Assembly: GCA_945787595.1 (NCBI GenBank)
Contig: CALZJV010000585.1
Span: 1-10,457, forward strand
Reading direction: 5' to 3'
DNA length: 10,457 nucleotides
Origin: an uncultured Desulfobacterales bacterium
GTDB lineage: Bacteria > Desulfobacterota > Desulfobacteria > Desulfobacterales > JAFDCJ01
The translations under genes were made by a program, and so were the position numbers. Every line of letters begins with the position of its first letter. Positions within the stretch are counted from its first letter, which is position 1. Positions 5,007-9,839 of the stretch are shown here, piece by piece. Below the pieces are notes generated by a model. That model was not told the origin of the DNA. It made no database searches and worked only from the letters and a program-made list of their open reading frames with translations.

Positions 5007-5694
5007 ATGTATCAATTCCTGATGGGACCGGCCCTGTGGGCCACATTCACCATTTTTATATGCGGGCTGATTATCCGGATAGTATTTCTGTATCGCCTCA
5101 GTCAAAAAAAAGATCGCATCATTTATAATCATGCCGCCTTCAGCTGGGGGATAAAATCGATTTTATTCTGGCTGGTACCGTTCGGCAGTGCTTCTATGCG
5201 CCAACAGCCGGTTTTTACGATCATGGTTTTCGTATTTCACGCCACTCTGTTTTACGATCATGGTTTTCGTATTTCACGCCACTCTGCTGGCCGTACCATT
5301 ATTCCTCAATGCCCATAATATTCTCTGGGATGAAGCCTTCGGTGTCAGCCTTTGGTCCATGCCGGACATCGGGGCCGATGTAATGACCCTCCTCTTGCTC
5401 GGCTCGGCTCTTTTCCTGGTCATCAGACGCATGGTGCGCAGCGAGGTGCGTATCCTCACCGGTGCATGGGATTACGTGTTGCTGGGGCTCACCGTATTGC
5501 CCTTTTTGACCGGGTTTTTGGCGTACCATCAGTTTGGACCTTATGAGACGCTGCTGATACTGCATATTATATTCAGCGAGATCTTACTGGTCCTGATTCC
5601 GTTTACCAAACTCGGGCACATGATCCTGTTCTTTTTTACCCGCGCTTTTATCGGATTCGAGATGGGGGGAAGGAGGGGTGCAAGATCGTGGTAG
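5007..5694 (+). pseudogene. Membrane cytochrome b subunit, TmcC/HmcE (NarI-like) family, frameshifted by a 37-bp tandem duplication
   Basis: This would be the integral membrane subunit that passes electrons between the quinone pool or periplasmic cytochrome c and a cytoplasmic HdrD-like Fe-S protein. As written it is two overlapping frames: one from 5007 stops after 103 residues at 5318, the other is open to 5694. The 688-bp span minus 37 bp is 651 bp, exactly 217 codons, giving 216 residues, the size expected for HmcE/TmcC proteins. The restored protein starts MYQFLMGPALW, has about five hydrophobic segments, and carries His78, His91, His174 and His192 as candidate heme b ligands. It ends TRAFIGFEMGGRRGARSW. 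The His78 codon lies inside the duplicated unit. Start chosen from AAGGGAG 12 bases upstream and the promoter just before it. Hmc versus Tmc membership cannot be decided here; DsrM-like is less likely by length. Confidence 0.82.
5213..5286. repeat. Exact 37-bp tandem duplication inside the cytochrome b gene
   Basis: Positions 5213-5249 and 5250-5286 are identical and adjacent. The unit is 37 bp, again 1 modulo 3, so it shifts the frame. Each copy encodes the membrane stretch TIMVFVFHATL. Removing either copy joins the two open frames exactly. Confidence 0.97.
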
Positions 5695-7212: not shown

Positions 7213-7501
7213 AGGTGTCAGGACGAAAGGGCATGGGGCAGAGAGCAGAGCGCATAGGGATAAAAAGAAGGACGTTGCGGGTTGCGGGAGGGGTGGCAAT
7301 TGAATATTGGATTTACAATAGAGTAGCAAATTTTAAGTCTCAAACCACACTATTAAATTAATAACTCATTAAAACCGTTTGATTTTTGGAATTTGAGTAA
7401 TTGGAATTTATTTGTTGCCCCGAACCCTTGCCCTATGCGCTTTGCTCTCCGCTCCATGCCCTATGCCCTTACCCAATGCACTATGCTCTATGCGCCCTGC
7501 G
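7213..7501. repeat. Long inverted word-array pair between convergent genes
   Basis: The 289-bp spacer holds no gene. Arms at 7230-7259 and 7431-7460 are inverted copies matching at 27 of 30 positions (word family CCCTATGC, GCTTTGCTCT, CCATGCC). The right arm continues as a CCTATGC array to about 7500, abutting the stop codon of the minus-strand gene. Within the loop, 7274-7290 carries GTTGCGGGTTGCGGG. A 30-bp stem between convergent genes could block read-through in both directions, though no U-run follows. Confidence 0.75.
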
Positions 7502-9185: not shown

Positions 9186-9515
9186 GGATCGCTGAATATC
9201 AAGAAAGCCGTCTCTCTAACTGACCTTCATGATGCATTTCATAATGGTAAGATGATGAAGGACGCGGAAACACATGATAACCCCATTTGTCTTGTCTTCT
9301 GACTCATTTTTGGCAATAGGGCCGGAACTGAATATTTCAATCTGATCCCATCAGTAAGTCTCCAAATGGAACAAATCCTTTACATTTTTGTCGGTTAGGG
9401 TACTCGCATTTTACCGTATGGGATTGATCTATATGTTAAACGCCAGCCCTACCGAAATTGATTTTGATGTTTATCAACCGCGCAAGCCCAAAGCAAGCGC
9501 ATATGATGAATTGGA

Positions 9516-9546
9516 CTCCGGCTCGTAGAGCCTACGCCTCGGAGAG
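9516..9546. repeat. 31-bp palindromic repeat, copy 1, at a transposase deletion junction
   Basis: Identical to 9612-9642. It begins CTCCG and ends CGGAG plus AG, and holds the tight hairpin GGCTC-GTA-GAGCC, an alternative to the outer stem. It sits exactly between the N-terminal transposase fragment and the RHSGF fragment and contributes an in-frame TAG. It is REP- or small-MITE-like. Confidence 0.9.
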
Positions 9547-9611
9547 CGCCACAGCGGATTCAACGTTTATTGCGGCAATGCCATATGGCCGCACAATCAA
9601 GAAGGTCTTGC

Positions 9612-9642
9612 CTCCGGCTCGTAGAGCCTACGCCTCGGAGAG
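9612..9642. repeat. 31-bp palindromic repeat, copy 2, inserted inside transposase codons
   Basis: Second identical copy, same orientation, 96 bp downstream. Removing the 32 bp at 9611-9642 restores GGT CTT GAG AAC CTA, giving the continuous family motif GLENLARYII; 32 bp also accounts for the frame 1 to frame 3 change. This copy therefore looks like a clean insertion. No long target duplication is seen. Confidence 0.9.
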
Positions 9643-9795
9643 AGAACCTAGCGCGTTATATTATTCGAGCCTCCTTTTCCCAAGAGCGCATGACATATGT
9701 CGCGGCGCAGGATTCATCCGATGGGGTTGCCAAAGTGATCTATCAGTCAAAGGATGCTAAGACAACCAAAACATTTGATGCCCTGGACTGGCCTG

Positions 9796-9839
9796 CCCTG
9801 TTAAATAGGGCTCCCTTCAGGGAACCCTATTGAACAGGG
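9796..9839. repeat. 44-bp near-perfect hairpin at the third transposase breakpoint
   Basis: Left arm 9796-9816 (CCCTGTTAAATAGGG then CTCCCT) pairs with 9819-9839 (AGGGAA then CCCTATTGAACAGGG) at 19 of 21 positions, with a tiny TC or TTCA loop. It lies exactly between transposase fragments FDALDW and NVDPLLCPKC. No T-run follows, and the family sequence normally has no such element here, so it looks like a palindromic insertion or a deletion scar. Confidence 0.85.

Follow-up and report, generated by a model that had tools for sequence, protein, structure and literature searches.

The insertion sequences (ISs) of the IS200/IS605 group insert 3' of a short target without duplicating it, with hairpins being recognized in the process, and the transposition of IS91 is likewise not accompanied by a target duplication. 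Single-strand circles and subterminal structures are described for IS200/IS605 in PMC6006769. Most of the repetitive extragenic palindromes (REPs) are tagged at one end with GTAG or CGTC (PMC3733652), and in most of the subclasses of REP-associated tyrosine transposases (RAYTs) that have REPs, these lie beside the transposase gene, with atypical untagged motifs being found in two subclasses (PMC6006769) and REPs also being reported within genes (PMC3733652; PMC6006769). It has been argued that the REP doublet (REPIN) is what moves, the singlets being remnants (PMC3116915). The GC clusters, or double-hairpin elements, of the fungal mitochondria, such as GC42, are GC-rich, hairpin-forming sequences of tens of base pairs, whose units merge and shuffle, whose mover is described as unresolved and which, in yeast, are flanked by AG or ACT direct repeats (PMC4478555). 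The repeat considered here is a palindrome of 32 bp, found twice in a stretch of 10,457 bp (the window, meaning the whole stretch of DNA that was analyzed) from an uncultured Desulfobacterales bacterium (assembly GCA_945787595.1, contig CALZJV010000585.1).

This repeat is read here, with a probability of roughly 57%, as a non-autonomous mobile element of 32 bp that depends on an enzyme supplied in trans and probably moves in single-stranded form. A sequence-only reading of the window had already proposed a non-autonomous mini-element, which is now well supported by the dispersal of the copies, their sharp edges, the empty counterparts of many sites, and nested insertions that follow the same rule. 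When 122 matches from 121 loci were aligned on their core, the flanks were unrelated and conservation dropped abruptly at both edges (left, 0.98/0.89 to 0.31; right, 0.94 to 0.33). The scanning of 784,368 bases with a 34-mer recovered 80 exact occurrences and 33 with one mismatch, and the reversed 34-mer, used as a control, was absent from the same bases at up to nine mismatches. The unit begins with CCTCC and finishes with GGAGAG.

Empty counterparts, that is, ungapped matches to the joined flanks without the element, were recovered from the fetched DNA for 45 of the 131 distinct sites (the loci plus the window, with at least 25 bp on each side). The dinucleotide preceding the junction is unchanged with and without the element in 38 of these 45 cases (GG, with AG and CG as exceptions), as is the base directly before the junction in 43, and the inserted unit is therefore taken to be CCTCCGGCTCGTAGAGCCTACGCCTCGGAGAG, 32 bp in length, located 3' of (G)G. 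In a repeat family of one metagenome-assembled genome (loci L002, L038 and L120 versus L103), two positions are reciprocally filled and empty. The clustering of the sites by their flanks yielded 66 flank families, in which G is present at position -1 in 97% and at -2 in 88%, followed by A at +1 (50%) and G at +2 (48%), and in which flanking direct repeats of 1-6 bp are at or below the level of the shuffles (for a length of 2, four of the 66, versus a shuffled mean of 6.2). Nesting was seen in L009 and L014, where another member sits inside the first, at CTCGG/AGAG (the slash marking the junction), once again after GG. Relative to its empty counterparts, the unit adds its own 32 bp only, and at most sites the target is not duplicated.

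In the window, the repeat is seen as two identical 31-mers (9516-9546 and 9612-9642), the starts of which lie 96 bp apart, as had been pointed out from the sequence, and for which the base composition gives a chance expectation of approximately 1e-11. The two copies are two insertions of the 32-bp unit into a now-dead transposase gene of the IS91 family. The three pieces of the remnant, searched separately by tblastn, match L207, L212, L216, L198, L201 and others, and the family was identified through these relatives, with Pfam returning zero matches for two stretches of the remnant. At the site of copy 2, the flanking pieces are separated by exactly one codon in seven relatives (L198, L199, L201, L204, L207, L212 and L216), which means that the 32-bp segment is absent from them; the DNA was compared for five of the seven, and all seven match both sides up to the junction. 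The proposal that 9611-9642 is a clean insertion is borne out by these relatives, and the possibility that IS91 relatives naturally contain the segment did not materialize, given that it is absent from the related transposase genes. At the site of copy 1, L207 reads TTGAATTGG/CGGCACAGC, where the window reads ATGATGAATTGG, the 32 bp, and then CGCCACAGC; as L207 is uninterrupted here, copy 1 is likewise a clean insertion of 32 bp. It had been placed at the junction of a large deletion, which proved to be wrong, as the deletion (approximately 630 bp, by arithmetic on the L207 coordinates) joins upstream of the copy. The reference L207 is itself not intact throughout, as it has stops upstream, although its frame is open for 367 codons at the catalytic part. 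The end of the remnant (window 9796-9839) holds another long palindrome, CCCTGTTAAATAGGG...CCCTATTGAACAGGG, its left arm being exact in three of 218 loci (L109, L154 and L216); in L109 this arm adjoins a 32-bp element, and L216 is a locus that was chosen for an IS91 gene.

The repeat might have been confined to this locus, but when one genome was scanned for each species, at least 120 stretches elsewhere proved to carry its core, the true number being higher. Among the 120 matches listed, 113 are Desulfobacterota or Deltaproteobacteria-type records by title, including the named strain Desulfoferrobacter suflitae DRH4, which has one copy, and the others belong to Candidatus Scalindua rubra (three), another planctomycete (one), Candidatus Fermentibacteria (two) and Proteobacteria (one), a spread over phyla that may be inflated by binning errors. 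All 23 carrier genomes, reached from 24 loci, contain between one and 18 copies at up to three mismatches, and the reversed pattern has zero matches in the same genomes. In a class-wide sample, the element was found in 20 of 291 genomes (up to two mismatches), six of these 20 having been known as carriers beforehand. The distribution is patchy, and the copy number is low. The exact core is also present in a viral contig (IMGVR_UViG_3300009127_000006; L001 and L218), and identical copies in distant genomes, together with this contig, suggest that the repeat may spread between species. This contig holds at least three family members, located in the gaps between predicted genes. Among plasmids and phages, a region of 441 bp was unmatched at E values of up to 0.1, and the 41-bp region of the element had weak matches only, in one plasmid (E 6) and 33 phage records (best E 0.2), while Rfam returned nothing at the gathering threshold.

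The unit consists of an outer CTCC/GGAG stem enclosing the inner hairpin GGCTC-GTA-GAGCC, an architecture that had been anticipated from the sequence, and for which 20 variants, hand-picked by the analyst, provide moderate covariation support. This hairpin has 12 double-change cells in three pairs, and 94.4% of its cells are paired, against at most 63.3% when it is slid; its number of double-change cells and its covariation score were each reached by none of 500 shuffles. Two other stems were considered and set aside, one of them, CGTAG/CTACG, being the minimum that computation gives for one copy on its own, with two double-change cells and 125 of 500 shuffles as high, and the other, GAGCC/GGCTC, having 11 double-change cells (one of 500 shuffles), yet just 78% of its cells paired. 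Judged by these pair counts, GGCTC-GTA-GAGCC is the best fit among the three stems, its support from covariation being moderate. The GTA forms the internal loop of the hairpin rather than an end tag, and the reverse strand reads GTAGGCTC internally. The unit can also be described as a tandem of two 16-mers that are related to each other, an arrangement that is clearest in the member at 251-285 of L001. The copies listed look mostly single, with no doublet census having been made, and in one case, L096, two divergent members were seen next to each other in inverted orientation.

Seven of the 66 sites lie fully within an open reading frame (ORF) of at least 150 amino acids, against 44.5 expected for random positions in the same loci. 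Flanks that form a host hairpin loop reach a score of 7 or more at five of the 66 sites (null approximately 1%) and of 10 or more at three (null 0.02%). Matches to IS91 within 200 bp occur at three independent loci among 132 contexts (the window, with both copies; the site in DRH4, which is represented by both L025 and L219; and L100), versus none of 132 random contexts, where one match was found at 258 bp, in L100 too. The GC skew on the strand of the element has a mean of 0.028 in the 1-kb flanks, compared with 0.014 expected from the GG counts (sign-flip p 0.0045), and of 0.015 in the 3-kb flanks, compared with 0.010 (p 0.069).

The mobilization of the unit may be envisaged as a reaction in which an enzyme whose gene lies elsewhere would recognize the hairpin in single-stranded DNA, cut after G at both ends of the element, and then link the 32-nt strand to a single-stranded target, behind a G, in the manner of the HUH enzymes of IS200/IS605. 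A single-strand reaction of the HUH type is considered the most likely chemistry because a target duplication is usually absent, the short 5' target is fixed, and the unit forms a hairpin.

A number of observations weigh against this account of a mobile element moved in trans. The dinucleotide differs in seven of the 45 empty counterparts, many of which represent further copies within repeated flank families. The lengths matched lie between 25 and 122 bp, some being short (25-40 bp), and two of the counterparts (L079 and L176) are weak and lie in tandem repeats. Exact 8-bp direct repeats flank two of the 66 sites, a number reached by two of 300 shuffles. The covariation support is only moderate because two of its measures are not beyond the shuffles, the number of pairs being matched by 83 of 500 and the pair types by 34 of 500, and the main form does not fold with unusual stability (z -0.95; -1.96 in one variant). 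By the same measure of host hairpins, 61 of the 66 sites have no obvious loop, and the strand bias does not go beyond what the availability of GG largely predicts. As for the enzyme, the element is absent from the 30 Y1 transposase loci examined, of 104 matches in the carriers first tested (90,809 bases, within up to 1.5 kb, four family strings, at most eight mismatches), and Y1 genes are present in 18 of 20 carriers versus 33 of 40 non-carriers (Fisher p 0.70). Two carriers, G017 with five copies and G253 with eight, have no match to Y1, IS110, IS91 or reverse transcriptase, bearing in mind that draft genomes can miss genes. In the carriers, to which the other searches were restricted, IS110 was matched in 14 of 20 genomes (ten of 20 above the curated cut-off), as were the IS91 family (14 of 20) and reverse transcriptase (14 of 20). 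None of the tested families is a clear mover.

The unit resembles the REPs and REPINs in being short, palindromic, hairpin-forming and mostly extragenic, with no coding capacity, and, at 32 bp and with few sites in long ORFs, it falls within the definition of a REP as a hairpin-forming palindrome of 20-40 bp that is mainly extragenic. In contrast with the REPs, however, it has no unpaired GTAG or CGTC tag at its ends, such as is reported for most of them (PMC3733652), it is found at only 1-18 copies per genome, with identical units in distant genomes, and it is inserted here as a single unit, rather than as the mobile doublet of PMC3116915. Unlike the arrangement of a REPtron, where a Y1 gene has the repeat as its neighbor at a distance of up to about 1 kb, none of the 30 Y1 genes examined is flanked by the unit. 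Like IS200/IS605, it inserts on the 3' side of a short target that is fixed (G at -1 in 97%) and does not duplicate it, the exception being the 8-bp repeats at two of the 66 sites, but it has no internal gene and is just 32 bp long. It is similar in size and form to the GC clusters (PMC4478555), although it is bacterial rather than mitochondrial, and the AG or ACT direct repeats were not seen at its 66 flank families. Like the miniature inverted-repeat transposable elements (MITEs) of DDE transposons, it is non-autonomous, dispersed and palindromic, but it lacks a target duplication of constant length, is far shorter, and has no parent element in the DNA examined. Four 13-letter strings of the element did not occur in the literature searched, and a search by topic, covering titles and the beginnings of abstracts, found no description naming such an element among the papers listed, subscription papers and preprints being outside the scope of both. 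The repeat may be characterized as a mobile palindrome that resembles the REPs but differs from them in its edge, its target rule and, apparently, its mover.

The likeliest of the alternatives is a classical REP or REPIN moved by a RAYT (TnpA-REP) transposase, which is what the sequence-only reading had proposed. It would account for a palindromic hairpin unit located outside long ORFs, and Y1 genes were found in all 12 of the carriers first tested; the missing tag does not exclude every RAYT, since untagged, atypical REP-like motifs are reported for subclasses 2.6 and 3 (PMC6006769). It is nevertheless unlikely, as the suggested link of the palindrome to a Y1 or RAYT-like gene was not found at any of the Y1 loci examined, the nearest pair of an element and a Y1 gene is 1.8 kb apart (by eye, in 11 genomes, with the elements of G005 not listed and those of G006 partly listed), Y1 genes are equally common in non-carriers, GTAG or CGTC is found at neither end, and copies are few. 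The tandem 16-mers raise the more doubtful prospect that a larger insertion sequence has left the unit behind as an end-to-end remnant, in the form of a MITE or a scar, the two 16-nt halves being the ends of that sequence. No gene is flanked by two such halves in 986,168 bases of the fetched loci, though, and the 13 left and nine right half matches outside full copies proved on inspection to be variants or nested, interrupted or truncated copies, with L059 holding a lone left half. A composite element lying between two copies was also rejected, as no transposase was recognized by eye, with no domain search run, in L182 and L183, two of six such stretches.

The remaining alternatives differ in the enzyme they invoke. 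Spread through an RNA copy (retro-insertion), for which the discussion of the yeast mitochondrial GC clusters (PMC4478555) is a precedent, would be compatible with a structured unit and a clean insertion, but is given a slim chance, with a match to reverse transcriptase in only 14 of the 20 carriers, which are draft genomes. The chance is slimmer still that the units are products of the IS91-family (Y2 HUH) transposases, even though IS91 transposition leaves no target duplication and the copies of the window and of DRH4 sit in IS91-type genes, with a match within 200 bp at L100 as well; the independent loci number only three, an IS91 match is found in just 14 of the 20 carriers, and decaying transposase genes would be harmless landing sites.

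A broader form of the preferred reading, that of an element mobilized in trans, is put forward tentatively, at slightly less than even odds. The repeat would then be a free-standing DNA unit that is mobilized in several bacterial phyla by some enzyme other than a REP-linked RAYT, it would be among the smallest bacterial transposable units that insert cleanly, and its targeting of itself after GG, including the GG in its own right end, would build nested palindromes. If so, a single palindrome, and not the REP doublet alone, can be the moving unit, and some of the nested intergenic hairpins in the uncultured relatives of sulfate reducers would be accounted for. The exact edges, empty counterparts and target rule make the question of how the smallest repeats move directly testable, including in DRH4.

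Coordinates of the element copies and of their host gene in the window
Feature	Position	Strand	Details
Element copy 1	9515..9546	+	32 bp; first base A, not C (one substitution); target GG at 9513-9514; empty site in L207 (AATTGG/CGGCACAGC)
Element copy 2	9611..9642	+	Exact 32-bp consensus CCTCCGGCTCGTAGAGCCTACGCCTCGGAGAG; TG before (9609-9610); empty site in L207, L212 and five more relatives
Inner hairpin GGCTC-GTA-GAGCC (best-fitting stem)	9520..9532 (copy 1), 9616-9628 (copy 2)	+	Pair counts, 20 variants
Outer arms of copy 1	CTCC 9516-9519, GGAG 9541-9544	+	
IS91-family transposase gene remnant, host of both copies	9433..9832	+	N-terminal piece, ~630 bp missing versus L207, then C-terminal piece; tblastn and DNA comparison
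Large internal deletion junction of the transposase gene (approximate)	9500..9506	+	10-15 bp upstream of copy 1; L207 comparison by eye

The element is also found within, or beside, other repeats. In several genomes, it lies between the inverted arms of a longer repeat family (CCTGGTCCTTTG ... CCAGGTCAGAG), as in L022, L034, L036, L043, L051, L121 and others, and related copies of this family without the element are present in L118, L170 and L071. A tandem pair of family members is found in L079 and L187 (G134:C187), where an 8-bp spacer, AATGCTGG, results in a period of 40 bp.

The window contains a number of other repeats. An exact tandem duplication of 55 bp (1167-1276) is located at the meeting point of two ORFs that are likely to belong to one transporter permease gene (labeled by eye), and therefore probably represents a frame break; it is either a recent mutation or an artefact of assembly. 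An exact tandem duplication of 37 bp (5213-5286) lies at the junction of two ORFs that overlap and are likely to encode a membrane protein (also labeled by eye), where it, too, is therefore probably a frame break. An intergenic inverted repeat, with arms of 32 bp (7228-7259 and 7431-7462) that are 91% complementary and separated by 171 bp, is found further along.
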